Positions 1 to 64,000 of a stretch of DNA of 64,000 bases are shown here, piece by piece. The position numbers and the translations under genes were made by a program. The stretch is from Psychroserpens burtonensis DSM 12212. GTDB taxonomy: Bacteria; Bacteroidota; Bacteroidia; Flavobacteriales; Flavobacteriaceae. The stretch spans positions 248,001 through 312,000 of the forward strand of contig NZ_AUDE01000001.1 of the NCBI RefSeq assembly GCF_000425305.1, read 5' to 3'. The stretch's first letter is position 1. Each line of letters opens with the position of its first letter. The notes under the pieces were generated by a model, which searched no databases, was not told the origin of the DNA, and saw only the letters and a program-made list of their open reading frames with translations.

Positions 1-746
1 TGCTCAATTCGCTGTAGAGCATGATCATTGTCAATCTCAATTTTCACACGAATGAACCCTTCTTTTTCTGCTCTTAAGATAGCAAGTAATCTGTGTGACG
101 GAATGCGACTTAATGCTTCTTCCCATTCAAAATAATCTCTAAATTTTTGAGCATTATCATCGTCCTTTTTTGATTTTATCACTTTGGTCGAAATCATGGC
201 GTGACGTTCTAGTTGGGACCTAAGATTTGATCTTATATCTGATCGTTCGTTAATCCACTCAGCAATAATATGTCTTGCGCCTTCTAAAGCATCTTCCGAA
301 GAAGAAATCGCACCTTTTACATAACGTTGCGCAGTAGATTCTAGGTCACTATTATTTTGTGACATAATAACCTTCGCGAGAGGTTCCAATCCGTTTTGGC
401 GCGCAGTTTCTGCTTTTGTTTTTCTGCTTTTTTTATAAGGCAGGTATAAGTCTTCAAGTGTTGCGCTGTCTTGACAAGCGTTTACTTTGGCTTTTAATTC
501 TGATGTTAATACCTCTTGATCTTCTAAGGCTTTTAAAATGGTAGTTTTGCGTTTTTCTAAAGCCTCAAATTGCGCTTTGTATTTCACAATATCTCCAACT
601 TGAACTTCGTCTAAATTTCCTGTGGCTTCTTTTCTGTATCTCGAAATAAAAGGAATTGTACAGTCTTGATTTAGTAGATTAACTGTATTTTTTACTGAAG
701 ATTCTAGTAATCCTGTCTGAGAGATTATGAATTTTAATACGTGCAT
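1..746 (-). CDS. tex: Tex-family RNA-binding transcription accessory protein, N-terminal part (runs off window)
   Basis: The minus-strand frame starts at 746 and stays open to the window edge, giving about 248 residues. Text such as CTIPFISRYRKEATGNLDEV near residue 30, LEDLYLPYKKSRKTKA near 105 and FRDYFEWEEALSRIPSHRLL near 205 is characteristic of the Tex N-terminal region. The YqgF-like domain, helix-hairpin-helix and C-terminal S1 RNA-binding domains of the family would lie outside the window. Tex binds nucleic acid and associates with RNA polymerase in other bacteria (family knowledge). The ATG shares one base with the TAA of the upstream methyltransferase (TAATG), so the two are probably translated in series. 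Confidence 0.93.
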   Translation of the reverse strand, partial: MHVLKFIISQTGLLESSVKNTVNLLNQDCTIPFISRYRKEATGNLDEVQVGDIVKYKAQFEALEKRKTTILKALEDQEVLTSELKAKVNACQDSATLEDLYLPYKKSRKTKAETARQNGLEPLAKVIMSQNNSDLESTAQRYVKGAISSSEDALEGARHIIAEWINERSDIRSNLRSQLERHAMISTKVIKSKKDDDNAQKFRDYFEWEEALSRIPSHRLLAILRAEKEGFIRVKIEIDNDHALQRIE

Positions 747-1378
747 TATTGTTTTTGAAATAGTGTATAAATATAAGGGCGTTCACTTCCAAAGGGATTT
801 ATAAAGGTGTAATTAAAATTATCTATGAGTTTAAAAGCATTACCTAATTGTTGTTGTAACATCTCAACATTATAGCGTTTCAAATCTAATCCACAGCATT
901 TTTCTGCACCATTAAGTGCAAAAACAGCAATAAGAACAAAACCGTTTTTTGCAACAATTTTTTTAATGAGATTGAAATATGCATTTTGCTGGTCTTCTTT
1001 TAAAAAGAAATGAAGTACAGCTCTATCAATCCATAAATCCACATTTTTAAGATGTTGTAATTCCGAGGGGTTAATTAAATCGTCTGGAATACAATTTAAG
1101 TTATAATTATGTGATTTTTTAACGCGATCTTTTAGCTTTTGCAAAGCTAACTCACTTAAATCATTTGCTATAAGATTAGTGTAACCGTTATCTAAAAGGA
1201 TATCAATTAATGTTGTGGTTCCAACACCTACATTTAGTAGTGTAGCATCTTTGGCTAAATTAGTTTTAGCAATAAGATTAAGGGTTTGAGTTGGGTCTTC
1301 TTCAAACCAGCCTAATTGGTTGTCGGCCTTATTATAGGCAGTATCCCAATGTGTTTTTAAATTGTTAGAATCATTCAT
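746..1378 (-). CDS. Class I SAM-dependent methyltransferase
   Basis: A 210-residue cytoplasmic protein. A Rossmann motif I is visible as LLNVGVGTTTLIDILLDNG near residues 47-65, followed by the acidic strand-2 end ANDLSELAL and a later NVDLWIDRAVLHFF segment. The start reads HWDTAYNKADNQLGWFEEDP, a layout common in small-molecule methyltransferases of the Methyltransf_25/thiopurine-methyltransferase-like type. The substrate cannot be told. The stop overlaps the tex start by one base on the same strand, so co-transcription is likely. Confidence 0.8.
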   Translation of the reverse strand: MNDSNNLKTHWDTAYNKADNQLGWFEEDPTQTLNLIAKTNLAKDATLLNVGVGTTTLIDILLDNGYTNLIANDLSELALQKLKDRVKKSHNYNLNCIPDDLINPSELQHLKNVDLWIDRAVLHFFLKEDQQNAYFNLIKKIVAKNGFVLIAVFALNGAEKCCGLDLKRYNVEMLQQQLGNAFKLIDNFNYTFINPFGSERPYIYTLFQKQ

Positions 1379-1428
1379 TTAATAACCAATATGTTTCTCA
1401 GTTTCTATATTTAAAACTAACAGAAAAT

Positions 1429-2865: not shown

Positions 2866-4923
2866 TTAACTTATTTGTAAACCACTTTTAACTGTAGTAT
2901 CAGGATTTACAAAAACCAGTTTCCCTTCCGCAGTTTCGGTCATTAAAATCATGCCTTCACTCTCTACGCCTCTTAATGCTCTTGGAGCTAAGTTGACTAA
3001 AACGGTTACTTGTTTTCCAATAACGTCTTCTGGTGTAAAACTTTCTGCAATACCAGACACTATCGTTCTTATATCAATACCTGTATCGACTTTTAATAGG
3101 AGTAGTTTTTTAGTTTTAGGCATTTTTTCTGCTTCGAGAATGGTTCCAACTCTCATATCGAGCTTCGTAAAATCTTCAAAAGTGATGATCTCTTTTTGAG
3201 GTTCTAAAGTTTTGTTGGCGGCTTCGTTTGCTCTTTTACTAGCTTCTAGTTTTTCCAATTGTTCTGCTATTGTTTTATCTTCTATTTTGCTAAATAATAA
3301 CTCCCCTTTTTCAATTTGATGTCCAGATGGTAAGAGCACATTTTTAGTCGAAATATCAGACCATTGATTCTCGAATCCGTTCGAACTGACAGAGAGAATA
3401 CCTTTTAGTTTCGTGGATGTAAATGGTAAAAATGGTTCACACAATGTTGCTAACGCACTTGAAATTTGAAGCGCGACGAACATAATTGTTTTTGTGCGAA
3501 CTTCATCGGTTTTGATTAATTTCCAAGGTTCTTCATCTGCTAGATATTTATTTCCTAAACGTGCTAAATTCATCAACTCTTGACTTGCTTCTCTAAAACG
3601 GTAACGTTCAATAGAGCTTTCAATCACTGCTGGATATGCTTTTATAGCAGCTAAAGTCTCGTTATCAATTTCTGAGAAATCTGAAGCTTCAGGTACGACA
3701 CCTTCGTAATATTTATTGGTCAAGACGACGACTCGATTTATAAAATTTCCGAAGATAGCCACCAACTCATTATTATTACGTGCTTGGAAATCTTTCCAAG
3801 TAAAATCGTTATCCTTACTCTCGGGAGCATTTGCAGTCAAAGCATAACGTAAGACATCCTGCATATTTGGAAAATCTTCCAAATAATCTGGTAACCAAAC
3901 AGCCCAATTTTTTGAGGTCGATAATTTTTTGCCTTCTAAGTTTAAAAACTCATTGGCTGGTACATTGTCTGGTAAGATATAAGATCCTTCTGCTTTTAAC
4001 ATCGCTGGGAAAATAATACAGTGAAATACGATATTATCTTTACCAATAAAGTGGACTAGTTTGGTGTCTTTATCTTTCCAATAGGGTTCCCAATCTTTAC
4101 CCTCTCTTGCAGCCCATTCTTTAGTTGAAGAAATATAACCAATAGGCGCATCAAACCAAACGTAAAGCACTTTGCCTTCTCCTCCAGAAGCTGGAACAGG
4201 AATTCCCCAATCCAAATCACGAGTTACTGCTCTTGGACGCAAACCATCATCAATCCATGATTTTACTTGTCCGTAGACATTAGGCTTCCAGTCTTTTTTA
4301 TGTCCTTTTAAAATCCATTCTTTTAAAAAGTCTTCATGTTTATCTAGTGGTAAAAACCAATGTTTTGTTTCTTTTAAAGAAGGAACATTACCCGTAATTG
4401 CAGATTTTGGATTGATTAAATCTGTGGCATTTAAACTCGATCCACAACTTTCACATTGATCACCATAAGCTTCTTCATTACCGCATTTTGGGCAGGTTCC
4501 TGTTACAAAACGATCTGCCAAAAACTGATGCGCTTCTGCATCGTACAATTGCTCAGTAACGTCTTCTATAAATTCACCTTTATCATTAAGTGTCTTGAAA
4601 AACTCTTGAGCAGTATCATGATGAATTTTCGCAGAGGTACGTGAGTAGTTGTCAAACGTAATACCGAAGTCTTCAAAGGATGTTTTAATATTCGCATGAT
4701 ACTTATCAACGATGTCTTGAGGTGTAACCCCTTCCTTTTTAGCTTTAATTGTAATAGGTACGCCATGTTCATCGCTTCCGCAGATGAAAGCTACATCATT
4801 ACCTGTTAATCTTTTATAGCGTGCATAAATATCTGCAGGCACATAAACACCCGCTAAATGTCCAATATGAATTGGACCGTTGGTGTATGGTAATGCAGCA
4901 GTAATCGTATAGCGTTTAGACAT
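2866..4923 (-). CDS. metG: Methionine--tRNA ligase
   Basis: At 685 residues this is the long form of MetRS, which charges tRNA-Met in the cytoplasm. The class I HIGH motif is at residues 19-22. A zinc knuckle with paired cysteines (CPKCGNEE, then CESCGSS) sits around 143-162, and the KMSKS loop appears as KLSTSK near 330. The C-terminal 110 residues form the EMAP-II/Trbp111-type tRNA-binding domain ([20 protein letters not shown]), which also dimerises the enzyme in the family. A TACTTTTG element lies just upstream. It is transcribed divergently from the LD-carboxypeptidase gene. Confidence 0.98.
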
Positions 4924-4954: not shown

Positions 4955-5009
4955 CGCATTTTGCAAGGGATATTGAAACGAGGATTTATAAATTTTGTAC
5001 ATTTACAAG

Positions 5010-6023
5010 ATGTCGAAAATTCGTTATTTATTAGTCTTGATTTGCATGTCTTTTTTCTTCGGAAATGTAACCGCTCAAGATAAACCTATCCAACAAAAAG
5101 AAACTGCTTTGATACAACCACCATTCCTTAAAGCTGGAGATACCGTTGCTATTGTAGCACCTTCAGGAATTTTAAAAAATAGAACTAGAGAAGTTGATCA
5201 AGCTGTTGCGCTTTTGAAAAGTTGGGGTTTACATGCTGTGGTTGGTAAAAATGTATTTAGTAATGGCAATCATTTTGCAGGTACAGATGAAGAGCGCTGT
5301 GAGGACTTTCAAAACGTATTAGATGACCCTAAAATTAGTGCGATTTGGTGCGCTAGAGGCGGTTATGGAACTGTTAGAATCTTAGATAAATTAGATTATA
5401 CTAAGTTTAAGGAGAATCCAAAATGGCTCATTGGATATAGTGATATTACAGCATTACATAATCAATTTCACAATGAAGGTTTTCAATCGATACATGCGTT
5501 AATGTGTGTGAGTTTGCCAGAAGATGTTTCAGAAATAAAAGAAACTATAGCAAGCTTTAAATCTACAATTTTCGGGAAACCGGTTGATTATATTTTAACA
5601 GGTTCAAATTACAACAGAGTAGGAGAAGCAACAGGGCCTTTGGTTGGAGGGAACTTAACAATACTTCATACGATGTTAGGATCAAAGGAGAGTCTTGATA
5701 CGCGTGGTAAAATCTTATTTATAGAAGACATAGGGGAATATAAATACCATATAGATCGCATGCTCCAAAGTTTAAAACGTGCAGGCTATTTCGATAATTG
5801 TGCAGGTGTTTTAGTTGGTGATATGAGCAGAATGCGAAAAAACACAACACCTTGGGGAGCTTCTGTAGAGCAACTTATTTTGGATGCTTTGTCAGATTAT
5901 GATTTTCCAATTGCATTTGGTATGCCTGCTGGACATGAGAAAGATAATCGTGCTATGGTTCTAGGGCAGACCATAAAATTAGAAGTCCAGAAAGATAAAA
6001 GTACTATGGTGTTTTTAAAATAA
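5010..6023 (+). CDS. LD-carboxypeptidase (peptidase family S66), secreted
   Basis: Cleaves the terminal D-amino acid from tetrapeptide stems during murein recycling, or related amide bonds in MccF-like relatives. The ATG at 5010 gives a clean signal peptide (residues about 1-23, ending VTAQ); an upstream TTG at 4995 only adds five residues and is not used here. The S66 serine lies in WLIGYSDITALH, with the Glu region LFIEDIGEYKYHIDRML and the catalytic His in GMPAGHEKDN. A signal peptide is unusual for classical cytoplasmic LdcA but common in Bacteroidota homologues and implies a periplasmic site. The 3' end overlaps the convergent small membrane gene by nine bases. Confidence 0.9.
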   Translation: MSKIRYLLVLICMSFFFGNVTAQDKPIQQKETALIQPPFLKAGDTVAIVAPSGILKNRTREVDQAVALLKSWGLHAVVGKNVFSNGNHFAGTDEERCEDFQNVLDDPKISAIWCARGGYGTVRILDKLDYTKFKENPKWLIGYSDITALHNQFHNEGFQSIHALMCVSLPEDVSEIKETIASFKSTIFGKPVDYILTGSNYNRVGEATGPLVGGNLTILHTMLGSKESLDTRGKILFIEDIGEYKYHIDRMLQSLKRAGYFDNCAGVLVGDMSRMRKNTTPWGASVEQLILDALSDYDFPIAFGMPAGHEKDNRAMVLGQTIKLEVQKDKSTMVFLK

Positions 6024-9867: not shown

Positions 9868-10365
9868 ATGTATAAAAAAGATTTTGAAATAAGATGGAGT
9901 GATGTTGATGCAAATGGTCATTTGGCTAATTCTGCATATTTAAATTTTATGAGTCACACACGAGTAGGGTTTTTGAATGAACATGGGTTCTCGATGAAAA
10001 AACTTATAGAACATGGTATTGGTCCTGTGGTATTTTCTGAGCAAATTCATTATTTCAAAGAATCGTTTCTAGGTCAAACGTTAACCGTTACATTGGCAGT
10101 TTCAGGATTGAGCGAGGACGGGATGTTCTTCAAATTTGAACATAATTTCTACAATCAAAAAGGAAGTCATGTTGCCACTTGTGATATTTTGGGTGCTTGG
10201 ATGAATTTAAAAACGAGAAGTCTAACGGTTTTACCAGACCAGCTTAAAAGTCTAGTTTTAAAATTTCCGAAGTCACCAAATTTTCAAACCCTTACAAAAG
10301 AAGACACACGTCAATCTGGAAAAAAGCCTCAAGATCTAATATCAAATGAACTTCAAAAGGGTTGA
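9868..10365 (+). CDS. Acyl-CoA thioesterase (4HBT hot-dog fold)
   Basis: A 165-residue cytoplasmic protein. The N-terminus FEIRWSDVDANGHLANSAYL is the 4-hydroxybenzoyl-CoA thioesterase signature with the catalytic Asp (SDVDANGH), and HYFKESFLGQTLTVTL fits the central hot-dog strand. It resembles YbgC/FadM-type enzymes that hydrolyse acyl-CoA; chain-length preference cannot be read. It stands alone, ending two bases before the end of the convergent transporter gene. Confidence 0.85.
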   Translation: MYKKDFEIRWSDVDANGHLANSAYLNFMSHTRVGFLNEHGFSMKKLIEHGIGPVVFSEQIHYFKESFLGQTLTVTLAVSGLSEDGMFFKFEHNFYNQKGSHVATCDILGAWMNLKTRSLTVLPDQLKSLVLKFPKSPNFQTLTKEDTRQSGKKPQDLISNELQKG

Positions 10366-12945: not shown

Positions 12946-13664
12946 TTTAATTTTAAAAATTGCTTTACTTCTAAAAATGGAATAGTAAATTCTACGATTC
13001 CTTGAGAATACGATGCAATTTCATAAGGATTATATAGTACGGTTAAGCCGTCGTCGTTATAACCTAAAGTTTCTGGGAGTTGAAAGTCTTTTCCGAAGAA
13101 TACATCCTCAATAAGTTGATGGTTATTATCTGCTTTAATGTCTTCTTTTAGCTTTTCTTCGATAACTTCGGAAAGTCCTTGCATATTGCTAACCAGGTCT
13201 TTTTTAGTATACTGATTACCAGTTTGTGGATTAAAATTAAAAAACCTTACGTTGGTATTACCATGAGCACCACCAGTATCTAGATATGATGTTATGGCAA
13301 TACTGATAATCTCGGGAGAGCGATAAGTAACTTCTCCATCTATGAAAACTTCCCATTGCTGAGCCGACTCCGGGAAATTATTTTTGAATCTTTTATACTC
13401 GTAGTTAAATTTTGCGATAGCATCGTATAAGTTTCCATCTGTATCATCATTTTTAGATACATTTATTTGATTTGTAATGTAGTTCTCGAGAGTATGGTTA
13501 ATACCTTTTACTATAGCCTCAGTACCCTCTGCTTTAGGGAAATTAAGAGCTATTTCGGCTCCTTCTGATGTTTCAATAATTTCTTGTGAAAAATCAATTT
13601 TCACTTTTTTTTCACAAGAAACAAGAAATATAAGGAGTAAGATAATTAGACTTGCTTTTTTCAA
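12942..13664 (-). CDS. DUF3298/DUF4163 lipoprotein
   Basis: A 240-residue protein with a lipoprotein signal ending FLVSC (Cys17). The C-terminal half has TSYLDTGGAHGNTNVRFFNF, the GGAHGN-containing core of DUF3298, a domain also found in the extracellular part of the anti-sigma factor RsiV. In RsiV it is linked to binding of lysozyme-like ligands. Here there is no membrane-spanning anti-sigma part, so its role is unknown: a periplasmic or outer-membrane lipoprotein. Neighbours give no functional hint. Confidence 0.8.
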   Translation of the reverse strand: MKKASLIILLLIFLVSCEKKVKIDFSQEIIETSEGAEIALNFPKAEGTEAIVKGINHTLENYITNQINVSKNDDTDGNLYDAIAKFNYEYKRFKNNFPESAQQWEVFIDGEVTYRSPEIISIAITSYLDTGGAHGNTNVRFFNFNPQTGNQYTKKDLVSNMQGLSEVIEEKLKEDIKADNNHQLIEDVFFGKDFQLPETLGYNDDGLTVLYNPYEIASYSQGIVEFTIPFLEVKQFLKLN

Positions 13665-17528: not shown

Positions 17529-19895
17529 ATGTTTAAAAGAATAGCATTTATCCTTTTAGCTTTAATATCCTTTGAAGGTGTTTCTCAAGATTTCTCATCA
17601 CTTTGGGAAGGCTATTTTTCATATTTTGGAATTAAAGATGTCTCTAGAGGGAATGATAAAATTTTTGCAGCCTCAGAAAATGCTATTTTTACTTATGACG
17701 TTTTTTCAAATGAAATAAATAAAATAACGACTATTGAAGGGCTTTCAGGCGAAACAATTTCTACCATTTCATATAGCGAATATTTTGGTTTATTAGTAGT
17801 GGGATACGAAACAGGTTTAATAGAAGTCGTTTTTGATGATGGTGAAATATTATCTGTGGTTGATATTCTTGAAAAAGAAAGTATTTCTCCAGTATTAAAA
17901 AAAATAAATCATTTTAATGAAAGTGAGGGGCTTTTGTATATCTCTACAGATTATGGAATCTCTGTATATGATTTAGGTCAATTACAGTTTGGGGACACTT
18001 ATTTTGTTGGAGATGGAGGAAGTCAAATTTCAATTAGTCAAACAGCAGTTTTTAATGGTTTTATGTATGTAGCAACGAGTTCAAATGGACTAAGGAAAGC
18101 CGATGTAACAAACCCTAATTTGATTGATTTTCAACAGTGGACAACAATTGTTAGTGGCAGTTTTATTGCGATTCAAAAAGTGGGTAGTAAACTATATGCT
18201 GTCGCTCAAAATAAAGTTTTGTCTGAAGTTGTGAGTGATAATTTAAGCCCATTATTTACTTATGCAACATTACCTGAGGATGTACGATCTATTAATTTAA
18301 ATTTGGTCGTTACTCTTAAAGAAGATGTTTTTGTTTATGATGAAAATTTTAATCAAATACAAACAGCATCTACAAATGAGGAGTTTGACACAGATTTCAC
18401 ATCGGCAACGATATCTAATGATAATATTTATATTGGAACAACCACTAGTGGTGTTTTGAAAACAACTCCCGAGAATTCACAAATATATGACGTCATATTG
18501 CCAGATGGACCAACAAGTAATGCTGCATTTAAAATCCAAACTGGAAATAGTGAGTTATGGTTAACTTATGGTGAGTACACCGTATCATTTAATCCCGGTC
18601 CGCTGAACTCTAGAGGTATAAGTATTTTGAGGGATTCTGAGTGGAAGAATATTCCTTATGACAGCTTGCTCACTGCAAAAAATTTAGTGGATATTGCCAT
18701 TAATCCATTTAATCCAAGTCAAGTATTTATAAGTTCTTTTCAATTTGGAATTTTAGAAATGAATAATAATGAAGCAACTGTGTTATATGGTCAAGACAAC
18801 AGTGGCTTAGAATCTTTAGTATTACCTAATAATCCAAATTTTGTAAGTATTCGTCAGACCGCTTCCAAATTTGATAGAACAGGTCTAATGTGGACACTAA
18901 CTTCAAAAGCAGATAGAGCTTTGAAGTCTTATGACCCAGCTACAAATCAATGGGAAGGCTATAGTTTCTCAGAATTAATACCTAATGCGCGAACAGGAGA
19001 GCAAGGTTTTGCTGATTTAGAAGTGGGCAATGGAGGTATGAAATGGTTAGCATCTTATAAAAATGGAGTTATAGGGTATAACACTGAAACAGAACAAATT
19101 AGTAATGTGTTTTCCGAAGAACAAAATATGCCATCTGCTCAGGTCAGAGCAATTGCTTTAGATAGCAGAAATCAACTCTGGATCGGCACAAATAAAGGAT
19201 TAAGAGTATTATTTAATACTTCTAACTTTATTAATGATCCAGATCCTAGCGTGAATGAAATAGTGATTTTAGAAGATGGTATACCAACGGAGCTACTCTC
19301 TAATCAATTTATTACAGATATTAAAGTAGATGGATCAGATAATAAATGGGTTGGAACTTTAGATTCTGGAATATTTTATTTCTCTGCAGATGGGCAAGAA
19401 ACCATATATCAGTTTACTACAGATAACTCTCCATTACCCTCTAATGCAATATCTGATATTTCTATAGATTCAGAATCTGGTAGGGTTTATATCGCTACAG
19501 ATAGAGGTTTGGTGTCTTTTTCATCTGGAGGGACAAAGCCGCAAGAAACACTAGAGGAAGCCTACGTTTATCCAAACCCGGTACGGCCAGAATATGATAT
19601 TTTAGGTTTTGACGACTTAAATAATATTAATAATGGTGTCAAAGTATCTGGACTTACCGAAAATGTAAATGTAAAAATTACTGACATCGCAGGAAACCTT
19701 GTTGCCGAAGCTCAATCTAGAGTCAATCAAAGATCCTCAAGGCAAAATTATAATTTTGCTATTGATGGTGGTACAGGAATCTGGAATGGTAAGAATTTAA
19801 GAGGAAATGTCGTGGCTTCTGGAGTATATTTGTTTTTAATATCAGATTTAGATTCGTTTGAGACGAAAGTTTTAAAATTACTGATTGTTAGATAA
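17529..19895 (+). CDS. porZ: T9SS-associated protein PorZ
   Basis: A 788-residue secreted protein. A signal peptide (residues about 1-20, ending GVSQ) is followed by SSLWEGYFSYFGIKDVSRG and KIFAASENAIFTYDV, the PorZ start pattern. Two beta-propellers follow, with repeats such as QLWIGTNKGLRVL, NKWVGTLDSGIFYF and RVYIATDRGLVSF resembling two-component-regulator propeller blades. The C-terminus (EEAYVYPNPVRPEY to FETKVLKLLIVR) is a T9SS sorting-type Ig domain. In Porphyromonas, PorZ sits on the surface and helps deliver A-LPS to cargo proteins. It is followed by recO after 12 bases, a conserved flavobacterial arrangement. Confidence 0.9.
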   Translation: MFKRIAFILLALISFEGVSQDFSSLWEGYFSYFGIKDVSRGNDKIFAASENAIFTYDVFSNEINKITTIEGLSGETISTISYSEYFGLLVVGYETGLIEVVFDDGEILSVVDILEKESISPVLKKINHFNESEGLLYISTDYGISVYDLGQLQFGDTYFVGDGGSQISISQTAVFNGFMYVATSSNGLRKADVTNPNLIDFQQWTTIVSGSFIAIQKVGSKLYAVAQNKVLSEVVSDNLSPLFTYATLPEDVRSINLNLVVTLKEDVFVYDENFNQIQTASTNEEFDTDFTSATISNDNIYIGTTTSGVLKTTPENSQIYDVILPDGPTSNAAFKIQTGNSELWLTYGEYTVSFNPGPLNSRGISILRDSEWKNIPYDSLLTAKNLVDIAINPFNPSQVFISSFQFGILEMNNNEATVLYGQDNSGLESLVLPNNPNFVSIRQTASKFDRTGLMWTLTSKADRALKSYDPATNQWEGYSFSELIPNARTGEQGFADLEVGNGGMKWLASYKNGVIGYNTETEQISNVFSEEQNMPSAQVRAIALDSRNQLWIGTNKGLRVLFNTSNFINDPDPSVNEIVILEDGIPTELLSNQFITDIKVDGSDNKWVGTLDSGIFYFSADGQETIYQFTTDNSPLPSNAISDISIDSESGRVYIATDRGLVSFSSGGTKPQETLEEAYVYPNPVRPEYDILGFDDLNNINNGVKVSGLTENVNVKITDIAGNLVAEAQSRVNQRSSRQNYNFAIDGGTGIWNGKNLRGNVVASGVYLFLISDLDSFETKVLKLLIVR

Positions 19896-23098: not shown

Positions 23099-26000
23099 TT
23101 AATTTGTTTTTACAGCCTTTTTAGTAATCGTTTGTCCGTTAGATAGCCTTACTCTAGCGATATAAGCAGCCTTACTTAATTGCGATAAATTATACGTTTC
23201 AGTATTATTTTGACCTCTTAGTTTGTAGATCGTTCTCCCTAAAATATCTAGGATTTCAACAGCATTGATAGTCATATTCTTCCCTACGGAAAATTTCACA
23301 TCTCCATTACTTAGTTCTATAATGGTTAAATCGTTAGGAGATACCTCGTTCTCGTTTATTGAAAGTGATTCGGGTTGAAAAACAATTTCAAAACGGTCGT
23401 TGAATTCTCCAGTTTCCGAAGTAAATGTATAATCATTTGAGCTTAAGTTATGAGTGATATTCATAAGCATATCTTTAAGATAAACGGTGTTAGTCGTCAT
23501 GAATTCACCTTCTAATTGATAAATAGAGAAAGTATATAATGTGGCGTCATCAATTGAAGTGTAAAAGCCAATAGGTATAATTTCCTCAGTGTCTAAACTG
23601 TTTGGTTCTTTACCTTGAATTGCAAATTTTGTAGGAGTACTATTTTCAATTATAGAATAAATTATTGAGTTAGCGTTTGTTGAAAGGTTTTTAGAGGCAT
23701 CAAAATACATACCATCATTACCATCTGTCGCGCCATCTATGTAAGCGACTAGAATTTGATTAAACACACCATTATCAGACGTTAAGTTTAACCAAATTTT
23801 GTTGTCTTGATTAGCACTATTGTTTCTAAAGAATTGGTCGTTATTTCCAGTAACTCTCATGCTATTATTGAAAATTACATCTGTTGTTCTAATGGTGCCG
23901 GTGCCACCTACCAAAGTTGAACTAGAGCCATCATCCATAGATACAAAGAATCCTTGTCCTGAAGGGATATGTCTTGTTGGCATAAGTAGATCTCCACCCA
24001 TAGTTTGCCCAGATCCGTTTATAATAGCATAATCACTTTGTGAGTAGTTTAAGTTTTCATTACCATTGGTAGTGCCATCAGCATTAGTTTTGTGCGACCA
24101 AAAGAAAATAGCACCACTGGTAGAACCTACTGTTTGATCTATACTTGTGTTAGCCGTTAAAAACAAATCGGCATCTATTGCAGAAGGGTAGGGGTTACCA
24201 ATAAAATTCCAGTTGTTGTCCATAGTTTCAACATCATTCCTGTAAATAGGAACAGTAATGATACCATTGTTGAATGGTCCTTGGAAGTCATACTTATATC
24301 TTGCTGGAAAAGTAAACAGGAATGATTTAAGTGTGGAAGCGTATCCCACACCAGCAAGCATTGTGCTAGCAGCAGCAGCAGGTGTCCAATCATTAGCATC
24401 ATCATCTATGTCATCTTGTCCATCTAATGTAGCGTCATCGTTATTCGTTTCTTGGGTTTCGTCTAAATAGTTTTGGGCATTAAACCAAAAGCGTCTTACA
24501 GCAGAAGCTTCGTTTAAACCGTCTTCAATAGTCTCTCCAGAAACGGGAGATGACCAATACGTATATTCTTGATAAGTATTTAAAAATGCGGTTTCTTTTT
24601 CAACAGTTATTTTTGTTTTATCAGTCAAAACATCTCCATCAACGATGGCTAAGTCATCAACTTGTACAAAAGAGCCGTCTGTTTTAATGATGATATTTCC
24701 ATTAACCGTTAGATTATTTTGAACTCTAACAAACGTATTATTTTCTATGCTTAAAGTATGTCCTGTATTAACAATTAATTGACAGGCTTCAAAGCTCGTC
24801 TCGTTATTTGGTCCACCAACACTGGTGTCATAATCACCATCAATAAACACAATGCTATCAATAGCAGGTGGAGAAGACCAATTAGTGCCATCCCAAACAG
24901 ATTTACGGATATCTAAAAGAACAGCGTTAGTTGCAATATAGCAAGTAATATTATCTTCACGCACTTGACAGTAATATTGATAGTCATTGAAGTTAGACGT
25001 ATCTAATATATTTAAAGTTACAGATTGTTGACCAGTGTAACTTGTATTAGATGTTAAGATTTCATCCCAAGTATTTGATCCAGGTGCATTAAAAAACCAT
25101 CTGTATTCTAAATCTTGAGTATCTGTTGGTTCGTCAAAGCCTTCTATTCCCGCTATCGTTAAACTTGCTGAGAAGTTACATGCAAAAGTTGGATCAATGG
25201 GTTGTAAAGTAACTGTTGGTGCTACACCCGTAGAGAAGTCATAAGCTCCCATCGTAGAATAATCAACATCACTACAATCTGTATCATTCCAATCTGTTAT
25301 TATCCATGCTGTAGCTATAAAATTCGGATCTGGGTTTGGTATTATTGAAGAGGTATCTCTTTGGAAATTAGCACCTTTATTATTCAATCCTAAACCAGTG
25401 GCCCATGTTTCATCTCCAGAAGTTCCCCAAGCATCAACGATTCCATTAGGATTAGCACCAGTAATAGCAGCTGGTGAGTTTAAACTAATAAAATCATGTC
25501 CCAGATTTGGGTTATCTACTCCAGAAACCTCCCTAAAGAAGTTAATACTTGCGCCTACTAGTGATTGTTCTATTTGAGCTAAACTACCATCGCCACCTGC
25601 AACAGCGCACTGAGAAGATGCTGGTAATACGCCCATTGCTATGACATAGGTACTATTATTAGTAACAGAGCCTGAGTCCAAGACTAGTGTTTTTGGTGCC
25701 GTTCTATTTCCATTGTTGTAGAGTACTATACTGTAATTGGTCGTTGCAAAATTGATTGTTGCTCCAGTAGCATTATATAATTCAACATAAGTTAAACTGC
25801 CCGAAGGAGAATCAGTGACTTCACTAATAAATAAGTCTGACACTGTTGCACTAGTGCTTGTTTCACAACCAGAAATAGTGTCATTTAAAAGCGTGAATGT
25901 ATTACTGAAAACACAACTGGTAGTAAGCTGAACACTCAATGGTCCACCTACAGTAATTGTATTAGGCAGTCTTACAACAAGCTCTGCAGTTGTATCTGAG

Positions 26001-30648: not shown

Positions 30649-30788
30649 AAGAGGAAAAATTTAGATTTCAAAGTTAAGCAAACGTTACCAAATGAAATTA
30701 ATTGTTTACTAAAATGTATACGTTTCAATCAAGATGACGGTTTTTGGAAGGGGTTAATTTCCGAAGAAAAAATAATACGTATGCATTA

Positions 30789-36704: not shown

Positions 36705-36711
36705 TGAAAAC

Positions 36712-37977: not shown

Positions 37978-37978
37978 A

Positions 37979-38954: not shown

Positions 38955-38961
38955 AATTTAT

Positions 38962-39402: not shown

Positions 39403-39430
39403 TTTCCGAGGACAATAGTTTAATTTGATG

Positions 39431-40582
39431 TCAGGGTGTAAAGGTAGTGAGTAACTCTAAAACTTTGGTAATTTCTTTATGAGTATTATAACTATGTAAA
39501 CAGAAGCGTAAACGTTCTTTTGCCTTTGGAACGGTAGGAGAGAGGATCGCTTTAACGTCAAAACCGTTGTTTTTTAATGCTTCGGAAATGTGCTTGACCA
39601 GATCATTGCCAGAGATGATACAACATTGGATAGCAGAATTACTAGTTGTGAATAACTGCTGAAGTTGAAGTCGTTTTATTTCAGCCTTGAAAAAACTAAT
39701 GTTTTCTTGAAGTTCTATTTTGTCATGCTGAACCTGATTCAGCATCTCATCATAAGAAGCTTGGATGGTTGCTAAACTATGAGGAGGCAAAGCTGTGGTA
39801 TAAATAAAAGCTCTCGAAAAATTGATGAGATAGTTTTTAAGATCACGATGACCTAAAATTGCTGCACCATGACAACCTAGTGCTTTACCAAAGGTTATGA
39901 TTCTTGCAAAAACGAAGTCTTCGAGTTGTAGCTCGTTGACTAATCCGTTGCCTATTTCTCCAAAAATTCCAATGGCGTGTGCTTCGTCAATGATGAGGTT
40001 TGCTTTGTTTTTTTTGCAGATAGTGGCGAGTGTTTTTAGGTCTGGAGAATCACCATCCATTGAAAATACAGATTCTGTGATTATATACACGTCGTTTAAT
40101 TCGCTTCTAGACGCCGCTCGAAGTGATAGTTGGTGAGTAAGATCGTTTAAATCATTATGTTTAAACTTAAACGCTTTGGCGTTACTCATTTTGATGCCGT
40201 CACGAATAGAGGCATGGCAAAATTCGTCATATAGAATACTATCATTTCGTTGCGGTACACATGAAAAGAAGCCTACGTTAGCATCGTAGCCAGAGTTGAA
40301 AATAAGAGCGCTTTCTGTGTTATGGAATGTGCTTATTTGTTGCTCGACTGTGGTATATAAACTATGATTTCCAGTCAATAATCTTGAACCTGTTGCTCCA
40401 TTTTGTATGAGATTATGGTTTATTAGATATTGATGTGCCTTCTCAAAAATGGTTGTAGACCTTGAAAACCCCAAATAGTCGTTAGAAGAAAAATCAACTA
40501 AGGTATTTCCTTGTCCTAGATGTCTAAATGCATTGTCCTGTGTTCTAGAGCTGAGTTTGTTTTGTAGTTTTTTAGGAAGCAT
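39431..40582 (-). CDS. bioF: 8-amino-7-oxononanoate synthase, with repeat-derived insert
   Basis: PLP-dependent condensation of pimeloyl-ACP/CoA with alanine. It has 383 residues, including VDFSSNDYLGFSRS, NGATGSRLLTGNHSLY, HASIRDGIKMSNAKAF and the PLP lysine in IITFGKALGCHGAA. Around residue 285 the protein reads YDEMLNQVQHDKIELQ. EMLNQVQHDK is the translation of a common interspersed palindrome, lying in a surface helix region, so the reading frame has absorbed a repeat. It starts eight bases after the upstream membrane-protein gene. Confidence 0.95.
   Translation of the reverse strand: MLPKKLQNKLSSRTQDNAFRHLGQGNTLVDFSSNDYLGFSRSTTIFEKAHQYLINHNLIQNGATGSRLLTGNHSLYTTVEQQISTFHNTESALIFNSGYDANVGFFSCVPQRNDSILYDEFCHASIRDGIKMSNAKAFKFKHNDLNDLTHQLSLRAASRSELNDVYIITESVFSMDGDSPDLKTLATICKKNKANLIIDEAHAIGIFGEIGNGLVNELQLEDFVFARIITFGKALGCHGAAILGHRDLKNYLINFSRAFIYTTALPPHSLATIQASYDEMLNQVQHDKIELQENISFFKAEIKRLQLQQLFTTSNSAIQCCIISGNDLVKHISEALKNNGFDVKAILSPTVPKAKERLRFCLHSYNTHKEITKVLELLTTFTP
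39722..39750. repeat. Interspersed palindrome inserted in frame in bioF
   Basis: ATGCTGAA (39725-39732) and TTCAGCAT (39738-39745) are perfect 8-base arms around CCTGA, flanked by GTC and CTCAT. This is the widespread 'GTCATGCTGAAC..GTTCAGCATCTCAT' element. On the coding strand it supplies E-M-L-N-Q-V-Q-H-D. Confidence 0.75.
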
Positions 40583-47685: not shown

Positions 47686-47696
47686 AGTGGTATTTT

Positions 47697-54180: not shown

Positions 54181-54990
54181 CTAATCTAAAACTTTTGTTT
54201 TGTAGAATTCTGTATAATGCTCAGCGAAATCTTCAATTGGAAAATAATCTAAGACAGGTTTTTCAGACGCATCTAAATACTCATTTAATTCTTTTGGTAA
54301 TTCGTCTGAGCCTCTAATAAGAGCATCAGAATTATCAATCGCAATTTTCATGAGATTATTGTAGGTTGGTTTCTCTAAATCTTTAATCTTACTGTCGTCT
54401 ATGTTATCAAATTTAACTTTACTAATCATGTTCTTATCTAACGTTCCTTCAAAGCTTTGATTGTATACAGACGTTACAATTTTACTTTCAGTAAATAAAG
54501 GTTCGTTTTTATAGAATTCTTTCAAGTATAGCGGTAATAAAGATGCTAACCATCCATTAACATGGATAATGTCTGGAGACCAATTTAATTTTTTTACTGT
54601 TTCAATAACCCCTTTTGCAAAGAAGATTGCACGTTCGTCATTGTCGCTAAACAGCTTTCCTTCTTCGTCAGTTAATGTTGCTTTTCTTTTGAAGTACTCT
54701 TCGTTGTCTATAAAGTATACTTGTATTCTTTCCTTCGGAATAGAAGCTACTTTAATAATCAAAGGCATATCTAGGTCGTTTATTACTAAATTAATACCAG
54801 ATAATCGTATCACTTCATGGAGCTGATGCCGTCTTTCATTGATGTTTCCATAACGAGGCATAAATATTCGTATTTGCCCTCCTTGTTTGTTTACCATTTT
54901 TGGAGCTTCAAATGACATTGAAGAAATCTCTGTTTCTGGTAAATATGGTACAACCTCAGATGACACATACAATATTCTCTTATCTTTCAT
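54181..54990 (-). CDS. Glycogen/starch-synthase-like protein, N-terminal GT5 domain only
   Basis: A 269-residue protein from the ATG at 54990 (MKDKRILYVSSEVVPYLPET), which lies downstream of a TACTTTTG element; a longer upstream start is not needed. It matches the first Rossmann half of GlgA (IRIFMPRYGNINERRH, DIIHVNGWLASLLPLYLKEF). The whole C-terminal GT-B half (about 200 residues) is missing, and the ADP-glucose-binding KxGG loop is replaced by TEISSMSFEA. Catalysis as a glycogen synthase is therefore unlikely. First gene of an operon with DUF4270 (11-base gap) and glmS. Confidence 0.8.
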   Translation of the reverse strand: MKDKRILYVSSEVVPYLPETEISSMSFEAPKMVNKQGGQIRIFMPRYGNINERRHQLHEVIRLSGINLVINDLDMPLIIKVASIPKERIQVYFIDNEEYFKRKATLTDEEGKLFSDNDERAIFFAKGVIETVKKLNWSPDIIHVNGWLASLLPLYLKEFYKNEPLFTESKIVTSVYNQSFEGTLDKNMISKVKFDNIDDSKIKDLEKPTYNNLMKIAIDNSDALIRGSDELPKELNEYLDASEKPVLDYFPIEDFAEHYTEFYKTKVLD

Positions 54991-55027
54991 AAATCTTTCG
55001 TTTTTGGAATTAAAAGTAAAAAACAGG

Positions 55028-55035
55028 CAAAAGTA
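55028..55035 (-). promoter_or_regulatory. Candidate -7 element of the GT5-like/DUF4270/glmS operon
   Basis: The minus strand reads TACTTTTG (TAnnTTTG), 37 bases before the ATG at 54990. It supports that start over the in-frame codon at 55050, which is upstream of the promoter. Confidence 0.5.
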
Positions 55036-55066
55036 CAAAAATTTATGCAAATTGCCAGTAAAATAT

Positions 55067-55099: not shown

Positions 55100-55951
55100 A
55101 TGAATATTTTTGAAAATAAAAAAGAATTAATCGCGCATGTCGATGCACTAAAATGTGAAAAGAAAACACTTGGATTTCTTCCTACTATGGGAGCATTGCA
55201 CCAAGGTCATGCTTCATTAATTAGAAAAGGCTTGGATGAGAATGATGTTGTAGTAGTCAGTATTTTCGTGAATCCTACTCAATTTGATAATCAAGAAGAT
55301 TTGGTAAAATATCCAAGAACTTTAGATAGTGATGTTGAGTTACTTGAGACGATTTCCGAAGAGAAAGTCATAGTATATGCACCTTCAGTGGACGATATTT
55401 ATGGTAATAATGTCATATCAACGTCTTTTTCATATGATGGATTAGAACATGAAATGGAAGGACGTTTTAGAGATGGCCATTTTGATGGTGTTGGTACAGT
55501 GGTTAAAAGGCTTTTTGAAATAGTGAGACCTGACAAGGCTTACTTTGGAGAAAAAGACTTTCAGCAGCTTATGATTATTAAGAAGTTAGTAGAGAAGTAT
55601 AACATACCAGTTAAGGTTGTTGGTTGTAAGATATATAGGGCCAAAGATGGTTTGGCAATGAGTTCTCGCAATTTGAGATTAAAACCAGAATATCGTAAGG
55701 CTGCGCCTTTTGTGTATAAAACGTTAAAAGCTGCTAAAGATAAATTTGGCACAAAAAGTGCCGATAAATTGACAGAGTGGGTGACTAAACAATTTGCCGG
55801 ACATGATTTATTGACCCTAGAATATTTTATTATCGCAAATATTAGTACTCTAAAAACCGTTAAACGAAAAACAAACCAAAAATCATATAGAGCATTTATT
55901 GCTGTGTATGCAGATGATATTAGACTAATAGATAATATCGCACTAAATTAA
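55100..55951 (+). CDS. panC: Pantothenate synthetase
   Basis: Joins pantoate and beta-alanine with ATP. A 283-residue protein with the class-I-synthetase-like HxGH at His34 and His37 ([12 protein letters not shown]), [13 protein letters not shown], the pantoate/ATP region [10 protein letters not shown] and the KMSKS-like AMSSRNLRL. It is followed after 13 bases by panD, which supplies the beta-alanine. Confidence 0.97.
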
Positions 55952-58541: not shown

Positions 58542-59717
58542 ATGAAGAATGCCCTTCTTTTTATCTTCTCATTATTATTTTGCGAATTAATTTTTGCGCA
58601 AGTTACTTATGAGAAGTTTGAATCTCAAAAACTCAACGCTACGAGAGAGTTAAAAATTAGACTTCCGGATGATTATAATCCCGACTCAGATTTAAAACAT
58701 CCTGTAATTATAGTCTTTGATGCTGAATATCTATTTGAACCTGTAGCAGGTCAAGTGAGTTACCAAACGTATTTTGATGAAATGCCAAAATCAATAATTG
58801 TGGGAGTCGTTCAAGGCAAAGAACGTTTTTATGATAGTTATTTTGATGAGGTTACTGGACTTCCATTTGAATCTGGTGATCGTTTCTATAACTTTATAGA
58901 TCAAGAATTAATTCCGTATATAGATTCTAAATATAATACGAGTAAATTTAAAGTGGCCGTTGGTCATGACTTAATGGGGAATTTTATCAATTCATTCTTA
59001 TTCCATGACACTCCAATTTTTCAAGCGTACATAAATTTAAGCCCTGATTTTAAAGGAACCATGAGTGAAAACGTTAAAACTCGACTGGAGTGGTTGGATA
59101 GTGATGTTTTTTATTATTTGGCAACGGCAGATGGAGATATTAAATCTATAAGAGACAGAATTAGAACGACAAATGACAATTTAAAAACGCTTGATAATCA
59201 AAACTTGACTTATTATTTTGATGAGCTCATTGGTGACTCTCACTATACATTGGTAAGTGGAGCTTTATCTAAAGCACTCGACAGGATTTTTGAATTATAC
59301 AAACCTCTTGACGATAAGGAATTAAGAGAGAAAGCACTTCCATATGAAGGCACCTTAGATGATTATATTGTAGATAGATATAAGCGGATTGATGATTTAT
59401 TTGGGATTTTTAAGCCTATTTCCGAAGAAGAATTACAACGATTAATCACTTTAGCAGATCAACGGGAAGACATAGAATCTGTCTATAAAATTGGGAAATT
59501 AGCTAATAAGCTCAATCCAAGTTCTTCCTTTGGAACTTATTATATGGCCCTTCATGCTGAAAAATTAGGTAAAACTAAAAGGGCAGTAAAATTATATCAA
59601 TCTGCACTTGACTTAAATGAAATGTCTCATATAAATAAGGAATTTATAATGTCTCACGTGGAAGATTTAAAATTTGTAGAAGACGACACAGAAACTGAAG
59701 ATGATGAAGAAAACTAA
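58542..59717 (+). CDS. Secreted alpha/beta hydrolase-fold protein, nucleophile replaced (copy 2)
   Basis: A 391-residue paralogue of the preceding gene, aligned almost without gaps over the core (SQKLNATRELKIRLPDDYNP, HPVIIVFDAEYLFEP). A signal peptide ends at about residue 20 (LIFAQ). The elbow is AVGHDLMGNF with Asp143, and there is no nearby Ser; the His motif GDSHYTLV is kept. The TPR-like end (TKRAVKLYQSALDLN) is followed by an acidic tail EDDTETEDDEEN. It is separated from copy 1 by 92 bases with a TATCTTTA near-promoter, so it may be expressed on its own. Confidence 0.75.
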   Translation: MKNALLFIFSLLFCELIFAQVTYEKFESQKLNATRELKIRLPDDYNPDSDLKHPVIIVFDAEYLFEPVAGQVSYQTYFDEMPKSIIVGVVQGKERFYDSYFDEVTGLPFESGDRFYNFIDQELIPYIDSKYNTSKFKVAVGHDLMGNFINSFLFHDTPIFQAYINLSPDFKGTMSENVKTRLEWLDSDVFYYLATADGDIKSIRDRIRTTNDNLKTLDNQNLTYYFDELIGDSHYTLVSGALSKALDRIFELYKPLDDKELREKALPYEGTLDDYIVDRYKRIDDLFGIFKPISEEELQRLITLADQREDIESVYKIGKLANKLNPSSSFGTYYMALHAEKLGKTKRAVKLYQSALDLNEMSHINKEFIMSHVEDLKFVEDDTETEDDEEN

Positions 59718-59912
59718 ACTAAGTATTTACTCAACAGACTATGTTTTTGTCTACTTGTTTCGTAAATTTAAAGAGTTTTTTATATCCAATTTAAATTTGA
59801 AACGGGTGGCGCTTAAATTTATAGCGGCAATAAGTTTGTTCAAGGATATCAATTAAAATATATTAATTTAGCTGAAATTTTAACTGCGGAAAATTCTTCC
59901 GAAGAAAGAAAT

Positions 59913-61271: not shown

Positions 61272-61578
61272 TAAAACACAAAAAAGGAAGTTTTTAAATT
61301 GCTTTTTCTGTATTATAGTTTTGTTTAAATACGACCAATTTAGAGAGTCTTCTAAAGTGTTTTTTTGCTTTTTTATTATGGTAGTTTGCTATTCATCTGA
61401 TTTCCCAAACATTTCATCTAAATTAACTTTTATCTAATTTTTAAAACTATAACTAATACGTAATATTGTGTTGGATATGAGATGAATTGTATTACATAAT
61501 TTATAATATAACCAATAGATATCCCCTCCAAAAATCTATCTGACTAAGACATTAGTCTTTAAAATTAATCATTACGCT
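61272..61578. other. Gene-free gap of 307 bases before the LamG protein
   Basis: A very A+T-rich stretch. TAGTTTTG (61316-61323, TAnnTTTG) is present but about 255 bases from the next start. No open frame, hairpin terminator or repeat family was recognised here. Confidence 0.5.
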
Positions 61579-64000
61579 ATGAAGCGAAAACTACTATATA
61601 TAGTATCATTTTTAATCCTTTTTTCTGTGCCTCAGTGTGCTTTTTCCCAAGACACAGATAATGATACTTATGTAGATACTTCAGATTCTGATGACGATAA
61701 TGATGGTATTCTGGATAGTATAGAACAAGGCAGTTCCATAACCACCGCCAATGAGTGTGGCAGTGAAGAAGATTTTGATTTTAGTAGTATACCTACAGAG
61801 ATTTCAGGTGATGGAAATGTAAACACTTTGTTAGACGGTGAAGTTTTTAGATTTACTAATATTGGACCTGGAATAGATGGGCTCTTAACAATAAACACGC
61901 GAGTTAATGCGACTTGTGATTTGTTAGATGATAATTCATCACAGGCTGAGTATCTCAAGCCAGGGGTTAGATCAACGAGTTTAATAGCTGGACAAGAAGG
62001 ATACATAGAATATACTCTTCAGTTTGTAACTAGTGGCACTACTACAGCTGTAATTGTGCCCGAGTTTTTCATGAATCTCAATGACATTGATGGAGATAAC
62101 GAAAAGTTTGAACGTATTAAAATCCCTACACCTAACAGTTATGTGATTGATAATCCTACAAATGTTACAATTACCCAGGAGAACAATTTTTTAGTTACTA
62201 CTTCTGGTAACGTAAATTACCAAGGTACATCAAACGCATTTTCTACAATTAATGTAAAAGCACGTTATTTTAATCTTTCAAGTTTGACCTTTCAAATGGG
62301 AGTTCTTGCTAATACAAACGTGAGTAACGTCGTGCGATATTTCAGTTTAGAATTTTCATGTGTAAATAATTTCACAAATCCAGTGATAGTTTATAGTGAT
62401 GCAGATAATGATGGCATCCCAAATTATAGAGATATAGACAGTGATAATGATGGTATTCCAGACAATGTAGAAGCACAGTCAACAACAGGCTATATGCAGC
62501 CATCAGGAAGTATTAATGCTTCAGGGGTTACAGATAACTACGCAACAGGATTAACACCTCAAGATACAGATGGCGATGGAATTCCAGATTATCTCGATGC
62601 AGATTCAGATAATGACGGGACACTAGACATTTTAGAAAATGGTATGGTAAATACCGTTTCAGGTATAGACACAGATAACGATGGCCTAGATGATAATTTC
62701 GAGACTAATGGCATAAATGATGCTGTTTTCGATGTTAATGAAGATATCGATAACCCTTCAACTTTACCTGACGCTGACGGTGATTTACTAAGTGGAGGAG
62801 ATGTGGATTATCGTGATTTATTTGATAGTAATCCACCCATAAATGCAGCATTAGAATTTGATGGAGTAGATGATTATGCAACAGGCCGTGGCTTTGTTGA
62901 TGGCTTAGATCAGGTTACTATAATGGCTTGGGTGAAAATAGACAATTCTGCTTCTGGAACTATGACCATAGTGGGAGAGGATTTAAGTTGTAGACTATTT
63001 GTTGAAAATGGAAATACAATTGGATTTTTAATAAAGACAGTTGGGAATACCACACGTTCGGTTTTGAGTGCTGCTATAAATACTGATGAATGGCATCACG
63101 TAACAGGAGTATTTTCTTCAATAACGGGTCGGAACGAATTATACATAGATGGTGAGTTAGTAGGTTTTAATGCTGGGCCCACTGGAGCTAATATTGAAGT
63201 AACTTCAGGCAGTAACGGTGCTTTTGAGATAGGAAGGCGTTCTAGTAATTTAAGTAATAAAGAGTATTTTAATGGAGAGATAGATGAGATAAGAGTCTTT
63301 AATAAATCCTTATCTACGAATCAGATTCAGCAGATGGTTTTTCAGGAGATTGCTAATATCTTCGGAAATGTTAGAGGAACAATAATTGATAAAGATATTA
63401 TAGAATTTTCGAATTCTAACAATGTCTTATGGGCAAATCTATTGGCATATTATCCAATGTCTGAACTAAGAGGAAATGATTTAATCGATTATTCACAGTA
63501 CTCAAGAACTTTTAAACTTACTAATATTACATCAATACAAGTTCAAACTGCGCCAATGCCTTTTCAAACAAATGCTAATGGAGATTGGAGTGCAGAGAAT
63601 ACATGGTTATATGGTGATGTTTGGGATATTGAAAATGTGTTAACTAATAAGGATTGGAGCATTGTTCAAATCAATAATGAAGTAACTTCTTCAAGTTCAC
63701 ATACCAATTTAGGATTATTCATTAACCATAATGAAAAACTTATTATTAGTGGAGATCATAAAGTTGAAAACACATGGTATTTAGAACTTAATGGGACTTT
63801 AGATTTAAGTAATGATTCACAACTAATACAAAGTACTAATAGTGATTTGGTAACATCATCGCAAGGGGGAATATTACGACGACAAGAAGGAACTTCCAGT
63901 GTGTATTGGTATAATTACTGGGCTTCTCCAGTTGGTGAATTACGTGCAACTGCCTTAGTTGATAATAATACCAGCGTCAACAATGCAAATAATACGAATT
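61579..64000 (+). CDS. Secreted LamG/TSP3-repeat surface protein, N-terminal part (runs off window)
   Basis: Open for 807 codons to the window edge. It has a signal peptide (residues about 1-28, ending CAFSQ), then thrombospondin-type-3-like calcium loops ([16 protein letters not shown] near 36, [19 protein letters not shown] near 273, [19 protein letters not shown] near 330). A LamG/concanavalin-like domain follows at about 424-583 ([42 protein letters not shown]), then a repeat-rich region with GDWSAENTW and YNYWASPVG. The same YW(S/A)SPVG module occurs in the 1814-residue T9SS protein of this window, so a T9SS sorting domain is expected beyond the edge. Confidence 0.88.

Follow-up and report, generated by a model that had tools for sequence, protein, structure and literature searches.

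The stretch analysed here (the window) covers 64 kb of the genome of Psychroserpens burtonensis DSM 12212 (C1:248001-312000; genome G000, 68 contigs, 3.98 Mb), and the element in question is the octamer TTCCGAAG, which recurs on both of its strands. We found 19 copies in the window, 12 on the plus and 7 on the minus strand, while dinucleotide shuffles lead to an expectation of 1.39 and none of 100 shuffles reaches 19; the decamer TTTCCGAAGA is present ten times vs 0.13 expected. According to our own calls of open reading frames (ORFs), 17 sites are coding, with each of the three phases and both orientations to the gene represented, and two (30759 and 59897) are non-coding. A null that preserves the proteins and their codon usage yields 1.08 coding sites, with a maximum of 6 in 1000 shuffles, compared with the 17 observed. 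An earlier examination of the letters alone (the sequence-only reading) had listed 19 octamers with coordinates and strands, ten decamer extensions and a division into 17 genic sites in different frames and two intergenic ones, and had estimated that 1-2 octamers and less than one decamer should occur by chance; every one of these statements was reproduced by our counts, ORF calls and shuffles. The sites are:

294..301, plus: TTCCGAAG, coding, opposite strand of ORF 3-746
3746..3755, plus: TTTCCGAAGA, coding, opposite strand of ORF 2866-4923
5056..5065, minus: TTTCCGAAGA then A-tract, coding, opposite strand of ORF 4995-6023
10265..10272, plus: TTCCGAAG, coding, same strand as ORF 9868-10365
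13090..13099, plus: TTTCCGAAGA, coding, opposite strand of ORF 12942-13664
13166..13173, minus: TTCCGAAG, coding, same strand as ORF 12942-13664
19111..19120, plus: TTTCCGAAGA, coding, same strand as ORF 17529-19895
23414..23421, plus: TTCCGAAG, coding, opposite strand of ORF 23099-28543
30758..30767, plus: TTTCCGAAGA with A-tract, between ORFs
32536..32543, minus: TTCCGAAG with A-tract, coding, same strand as ORF 32233-33201
32641..32650, plus: TTTCCGAAGA, coding, opposite strand of ORF 32233-33201
36422..36429, minus: TTCCGAAG, coding, same strand as ORF 35402-36562
37008..37017, plus: TTTCCGAAGA, coding, opposite strand of ORF 36712-37977
39580..39587, minus: TTCCGAAG, coding, same strand as ORF 39431-40582
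54733..54740, minus: TTCCGAAG, coding, same strand as ORF 54181-55050
55353..55362, plus: TTTCCGAAGA, coding, same strand as ORF 55100-55951
59419..59428, plus: TTTCCGAAGA, coding, same strand as ORF 58542-59717
59897..59904, plus: TTCCGAAG, between ORFs, 8 bases 5' of the start codon of the RadA-like ORF 59913-61271
63359..63368, minus: TTTCCGAAGA, coding, opposite strand of ORF 61579-63999

As for the genes of the window, ORF 59913-61271 encodes a RadA-like ATPase with AAA_25, ChlI and zinc-ribbon matches; RecO (19908-20627) and RecX (28629-29138) are also encoded there. The region 31104-40582 is an apparent biotin synthesis cluster with BATS and Radical_SAM domains at 31104-32198, the adjoining ORFs being presumably bioA/bioD/bioF-like. 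At 46096-50471, a TonB-dependent receptor with a carboxypeptidase-regulatory domain adjoins a GDSL-lipase-like ORF, and the two probably constitute a nutrient-uptake pair.

Genome-wide excess of the octamer

In the whole P. burtonensis genome TTCCGAAG occurs 1060 times (509 plus, 551 minus) vs 173 times for the reversed word, i.e., once per 3.75 kb. Within a sample of 444 kb (the window and 19 further stretches) it ranks first among octamers in a Markov model, and under a null based on synonymous codon shuffling it is the most over-represented octamer of coding DNA, with 115 coding copies vs 8.0. The word ranks first under the same null in three genera, the other two being represented by genomes G078 (131 vs 20.5) and G012 (301 vs 26.8). 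The congener G045 shows it in excess as well (30 vs 3.2), as do G198 (24 vs 4.5) and a pool of eight loci (27 vs 4.2). All six phase-and-strand coding classes are used, so no single codon pair explains the word, and on the strength of the synonymous shuffles and this six-phase use a codon effect was rejected as its cause. The sequence-only reading, which had discounted a codon-pair effect and argued for a DNA-level signal, is supported in both respects by the codon-aware null, the six phases, the near-equal use of strands and the genome-wide count. It had also allowed that the enrichment might be absent elsewhere in the chromosome, an objection which falls because the enrichment is genome-wide. 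We conclude that TTCCGAAG is a real, strong, lineage-specific DNA-level signal.

Core specificity and flanks

Single-base neighbours of TTCCGAAG were counted in P. burtonensis in a word set that includes 20 kb twice; 16 of the 24 are rarer than expected or deviate from expectation by no more than 12%, which marks a sharply defined core. Depleted neighbours include TTTCGAAG (6 vs 22.9) and TTCCGAAC (1 vs 6.0), and the most enriched are TTCCGCAG (22 vs 5.0), TTCCGTAG (22 vs 6.8), TACCGAAG (26 vs 10.6) and TTCGGAAG (28 vs 9.3). Enriched variants are shared by G012, namely TTCCGCAG (52 vs 13.4), TTCCGTAG (53 vs 11.5) and TTCGGAAG (126 vs 23.3). The base 5' of the core in P. burtonensis is T with a frequency of 0.64 and G with a frequency of 0.04, and the core is followed on its 3' side by an A-rich tract at +8 to +13. 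As controls for the flanks we used TTCCGAAG instances that arise in synonymous shuffles, in which the amino-acid context is kept. In P. burtonensis the tract exceeds this control at +8 to +11 and +13 (the frequency of A at +10 is 0.77 vs 0.38, z 8.3); the positions concerned are +9 and +10 in G012 and +10, +13 and +19 in G078. P. burtonensis displays, in addition, a preference for G at -10, -12 and -15. The A-tract suggests that the word may be read on double-stranded DNA.

Placement, polarity and maintenance

With respect to gene strand, TTCCGAAG sites on the same strand, on the opposite strand and in non-ORF DNA number 59, 56 and 14 in P. burtonensis, 150, 151 and 21 in G012, and 54, 77 and 3 in G078. 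The gene-strand mapping, which the sequence-only reading had advised, thus reveals no bias in P. burtonensis. Its companion proposal, mapping against replication strand and origin, could be followed in part: in one complete chromosome, G078 (134 sites in 18 stretches), a two-replichore split reveals no bias, the best two-breakpoint concordance (0.575) being below the null mean (0.593), with the origin itself not located. Terminator-like inverted pairs were considered and rejected, as the share of gaps shorter than 100 bp is close to expectation in P. burtonensis and G012 and slightly above it in G078 (0.060 vs 0.037).

The spread of sites in P. burtonensis is fairly even (variance/mean 1.03 over 19 stretches of 20 kb). 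In G012, two stretches of low GC content (0.377 and 0.389) hold 2 and 1 TTCCGAAG, compared with 15.3 per 20 kb on average, and two further stretches of similar GC (0.398 and 0.393) hold 10 and 8. Judging from their composition, the TTCCGAAG-poor stretches may be acquired islands, which fits recently acquired DNA lacking the word. When 94 kb were aligned with the congener G045 (78% identity), 9 of 29 TTCCGAAG sites were identical, compared with 85 of 800 control words of the same composition and containing CG (p 0.002). The sites are thus kept in the congener more than expected, yet most turn over.

Distribution among genomes

To a panel of 199 genomes of the family we applied a crude ratio, regarding as motif-rich those in which TTCCGAAG is at least three times as frequent as the reversed word. 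In this comparison with related Flavobacteriaceae, likewise advised by the sequence-only reading, 17 of the 199 are motif-rich, belonging to 16 genera and forming a mosaic within the family, while 145 are at or below the control, 32 have ratios of 1-2 and 5 ratios of 2-3. Densities in the 17 motif-rich genomes range from about 130 to 680 per Mb, and the highest count is 2187 in 3.2 Mb (G012). In a sample of the order (146 genomes), no genome of another family combines a 3-fold ratio with more than 20 copies. In a sample of the phylum (198 genomes), about 19 of 179 outside the family exceed 3-fold, at most with ~120 copies per Mb; examples are G217 (424 TTCCGAAG vs 74 reversed) and G377 (395 vs 106), these being comparisons with the reversed word. 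The excess outside the family may be weak or compositional. A codon-aware excess was not evident in G100, where TTCCGAAG is outside the top eight words of an 80 kb sample.

A candidate reader and the competence genes

Riemerella anatipestifer transforms without pili, and transposon mutants showed that a TonB-type barrel (RA0C_RS04915) and a DUF5689/DUF5017 surface protein (RA0C_RS04920) are needed, as are an HHH protein, a DUF1343 protein, ComEC, DprA, ComF and RecA (excerpts of PMC8459023). Our search for counterparts covered ComEC, the DUF5689 lipoprotein and the barrel. DUF5689 was found in 182 of the 199 family genomes, and a barrel gene followed by a DUF5689 lipoprotein gene in 16 of the 17 motif-rich ones; the remaining one (G058, 80% complete) has only a weak DUF5689 paralogue. 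In P. burtonensis the pair is located outside the window, on C12 around 8-10.7 kb (L080). Its lipoprotein matches DUF5689 at 1.3e-43 and DUF5017 just below the Pfam cut-off; the barrel fragment has no Pfam match and is named from the order of the genes and from what is described in Riemerella. The predicted structure of the lipoprotein (mean pLDDT 79.9) finds its best Foldseek matches in cleaved-adhesin and MAM-type jelly rolls, a likeness that presumably covers the C-terminal half and says nothing on DNA binding.

ComEC is encoded by 39 of 40 genomes tested, including all 17 motif-rich ones. In turn, the ATPase of type IV pili and type II secretion systems (T2SS) (PF00437, E<1e-100) was detected in 37 of the 199 genomes; it is missing in 15 of the 17 motif-rich genomes, P. 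burtonensis among them, and present in G090 and G114. In view of its absence from those 15, a type IV pilus was rejected as the reader of TTCCGAAG.

Related words in the family

The word TTTC[TA]GAA is enriched in G078, G012, G198 and a pool of loci including Cochleicola and Ulvibacter. We also examined whether duplicated DUF5689 domains accompany it and rejected this link, as the long receptors of L107, L120 and L121 occur without excess and the single DUF5689 receptors of L119, L129, L154 and L160 with it. Another word, TTTCGCGAAAGC, is common to six Nonlabens loci and strain BBFL7, three Dokdonia loci, G190 and G010, the Nonlabens and Dokdonia loci being drawn from 80 named loci. The pooled named loci (Nonlabens, Dokdonia, the TTTC[TA]GAA group, Winogradskyella and Mesonia) stem from the same neighbourhood of the chromosome, which makes their counts interdependent, and homologous sites may have been counted more than once; the counts of G010 and G190 and the samples of G012, G078 and G198 are free of this problem. 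G010 has 1181 matches to TTTCGCGAAAG (control 2) and G190 has 996 (control 8), whereas no other of the 199 genomes exceeds 45; the numbers of sites are about half of these, because the palindrome CTTTCGCGAAAG is matched on both strands. Both genomes are depleted in TTCCGAAG relative to the reversed word (7 vs 54 and 90 vs 293). In 148 kb, all 31 TTCGCGAA lie within a 14-base palindrome, GCTTTCGCGAAAGC, with AT-rich flanks (L132, L135, L141, L153, L158, L164 and L166, from BBFL7 and Nonlabens, homologous loci that may share sites). The words TTCCGAAG, TTTC[TA]GAA and TTTCGCGAAAG all retain TTC and GAA half-sites, with N or GC as the spacer. It appears plausible, albeit not certain, that TTTC[TA]GAA and TTTCGCGAAAG/palindromic GCTTTCGCGAAAGC are dialects of one signal.

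Other iterated words were observed in the same samples. G012 (L021, L042-L061) carries CGGACTC (92 vs 24.0) and GCGGACTC (30 vs 4.7), and CGAGTCCG is enriched in G078 (L022-L039; 15 vs 2.1) with no detectable strand bias; this CGGACTC-type word (GCGGACTC/CGAGTCCG) is a candidate for Chi or some other signal. GATC-containing words (GATCACC, AAGATCG and ATGATCTC) are enriched in G078 under the synonymous null.

Interpretation

The sequence-only reading had left the choice between a Chi-like recombination site, an uptake or segregation motif and a methylation target. An uptake sequence fits best, and a polar segregation motif and a RecBCD-type Chi are disfavoured. We consider it about 60% probable that TTCCGAAG, preceded by T or at least non-G and followed by the A-rich +8 to +13, is a DNA uptake sequence, i.e., a self-recognition word of the kind termed DUS (DNA uptake sequence) or USS (uptake signal sequence). 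Features of a DUS found here are the genome-wide excess beyond codon effects, at a DUS-like density, the occurrence in both orientations and the presence of encoded competence machinery. A surface receptor would bind TTCCGAAG on extracellular double-stranded DNA, and DNA of close relatives would thereby be imported preferentially; as imported fragments recombine time and again, copies would become fixed throughout the core genome (molecular drive), and they would decay after a shift or loss of the specificity. As its reader we consider likely a pilus-free TonB-type barrel with its DUF5689 surface lipoprotein, presumed counterparts of the Riemerella transformation genes. Analogy with known systems and the word's anatomy suggest that TTCCGAAG may promote uptake and that the barrel/DUF5689 machinery may read it. 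The broader proposition, that a large part of the Flavobacteriaceae carries uptake dialects built on TTC/GAA half-sites and read by such a barrel and lipoprotein rather than by a pilin, we advance tentatively and at somewhat less than even odds. In the open-licence literature we found, among the matches listed, no description of TTCCGAAG or of a flavobacterial DUS, nor of a signal of this type in the phylum.

Several observations weigh against an uptake sequence. Searches of the open-licence literature turned up neither uptake experiments nor binding data on any of the motif-rich species. Some known DUS are enriched between genes or paired as inverted repeats, whereas P. burtonensis has no intergenic excess of TTCCGAAG (14 of 129 sites, 10.9%, lie in non-ORF DNA, which makes up 12.6%), and P. 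burtonensis, G012 and G078 show no clear inverted-repeat pairing. Turnover is high, the congener retaining only 9 of the 29 sites in the alignment. When codon-phase composition serves as the reference, another A-rich zone appears at +16 to +20, but most of it is lost with the amino-acid-aware control, and we regard it as no more than suggestive. Nearly all genomes of the family possess the machinery, and finding it in a genome therefore does not tell whether TTCCGAAG is abundant there; none of the 17 genomes without DUF5689 is motif-rich, which is not significant (Fisher p 0.37). The specificity of the reader would have to differ between lineages, as in Neisseriaceae. As regards the putative dialects, TTTC[TA]GAA is also enriched about 3-fold in G100 (35 vs 12.1) and G087 (19 vs 5.8) and may therefore be more generic than a dialect. 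In G059, G071 and G087, all with DUF5689, samples of 60-80 kb yielded no word of comparable strength (an example of a weak one is CCGATTTA, 16 vs 2.6 in G071). Most sampled sites of TTTCGCGAAAG are palindromic, and only about 13 of the 31 sites of the Nonlabens word lie in ORFs, over half being intergenic. Clusters of TTTCGCGAAAG, mostly CTTTCGCGAAAG, are found in limited regions of genomes that have few other matches, among the matches listed at G012:C18:74148-174391, G078:C1:2826986-2841836, G087:C1:2540755-2562672 and G102:C1:61724-111884. Being palindromic, intergenic in Nonlabens and clustered elsewhere, TTTCGCGAAAG may therefore be a different kind of element. The clusters may be DNA from lineages with another word or a feature of mobile elements. 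The span in G012 contains both of the stretches nearly devoid of TTCCGAAG.

The main rival is an AddAB Chi, an 8-base word read on single-stranded DNA by the helicase-nuclease, at which degradation stops and RecA is loaded. An AddB-like PDDEXK protein (PF12705, about 920 aa) is encoded in all 40 genomes tested (in P. burtonensis at C12:87604-88410), mostly with a second PDDEXK ORF of about 1050 aa a few kb away that is consistent with AddA. The density of one site per 3.75 kb is Chi-like, by comparison with Chi of E. coli, and an AddAB Chi would also predict an excess in the core genome and depletion in islands. Yet the AddAB-type enzyme occurs in motif-rich, motif-poor and TTTCGCGAAAG genomes alike, while TTCCGAAG is strong in only 17 of the 199, which would require Chi to change between genera. 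Moreover, Chi of E. coli is replichore-biased, unlike TTCCGAAG in the single chromosome of G078, and the flanking A-tract suggests reading of the double strand. An AddAB Chi would thus have to be unoriented, lineage-specific and flanked by an A-tract; since an enzyme of this type occurs in all 40 genomes tested we leave this explanation some room, but deem it unlikely. A RecBCD Chi was rejected, as RecC (PF04257) was found in only one of the 199 family genomes, which is not P. burtonensis.

More improbable still is the target of an orphan DNA methyltransferase or a similar epigenetic mark, as proposed for HIP1. The HIP1-like abundance in coding DNA and the perfect palindrome of the Nonlabens word speak for such a target, while TTCCGAAG itself is non-palindromic and ungapped with a one-sided A-tract, and restriction-modification usually depletes its own word. 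We assign slightly less weight yet to a chromosome-organising or segregation site, be it a KOPS-type guide of FtsK or a site for a nucleoid protein: the copies are many, mostly genic and fairly even in P. burtonensis, but KOPS are strongly polar and TTCCGAAG shows no strand polarity in the one complete chromosome, and 145 of the 199 genomes have it no more often than the reversed word, though all must segregate their chromosomes. That the word merely results from bias in codon pairs, amino acids or mutation and is read by nothing at all is hardly probable any more. The word does contain common dipeptides (e.g., S-E, P-K and F-G), and codon-pair preferences are not preserved by the synonymous shuffle; nevertheless, the shuffled expectation of 8.0 vs 115, the 16 of 24 neighbours near or below expectation and the retention of sites in the congener above matched words refute this at the present sample size.

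Were an uptake sequence confirmed, missing or wrong dialects would let foreign islands be recognised, as they already are by dialect in Neisseriaceae (PMC7371117, excerpts). The finding would also offer a way into the outer-membrane DNA importer of Bacteroidota, about which little is known, and open up many as yet uncharacterised flavobacteria of the sea to tests of natural transformation. With a barrel and lipoprotein as reader, it would represent a second, independently evolved self-DNA recognition at the outer membrane. Uptake sequences are known mainly in Neisseriaceae and Pasteurellaceae, both with type IV pili, and if a lineage without pili had such words too, preference for self-DNA would have evolved more than once.

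Comparison with known systems

The USS of Haemophilus influenzae and its relatives has a core of 8-9 bases, one-sided A/T-rich tracts, two of them clear, and no strand bias, and its reader depends on type IV pilus machinery. TTCCGAAG resembles it in core length, in the one-sided tract and in the lack of strand bias, but the core is another one and only the first tract is robust. HIP1 of cyanobacteria is likewise a highly iterated octamer found mostly in coding DNA; in contrast to TTCCGAAG, it is palindromic.

Similar to Riemerella, most of the motif-rich flavobacteria combine, by domain content and gene order, a barrel-lipoprotein pair with the lack of a pilus; transformation has been shown there (PMC8459023, excerpts), whereas here competence is predicted from genes. 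R. columbina prefers its own DNA over that of R. anatipestifer and E. coli, and in the excerpted text no uptake word was identified, k-mers assessed against base composition having yielded only AT-rich words (PMC7965970). A close parallel is offered by the DUS of Neisseriaceae, as described in the excerpts of PMC3630211: a short over-represented word in thousands of copies (wadDUS, n = 2426 in one genome), with lineage dialects that follow phylogeny and share an invariant core, CTG. The putative dialects of flavobacteria share the TTC/GAA half-sites. The wadDUS differs by one inserted base and the flavobacterial words in their spacer (N or GC), and in both groups some relatives have no obvious word (PMC3630211). 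The reader in Neisseriaceae is the type IV minor pilin ComP (PMC3630211), while 15 of the 17 motif-rich flavobacteria lack the type IV pilus/T2SS ATPase.

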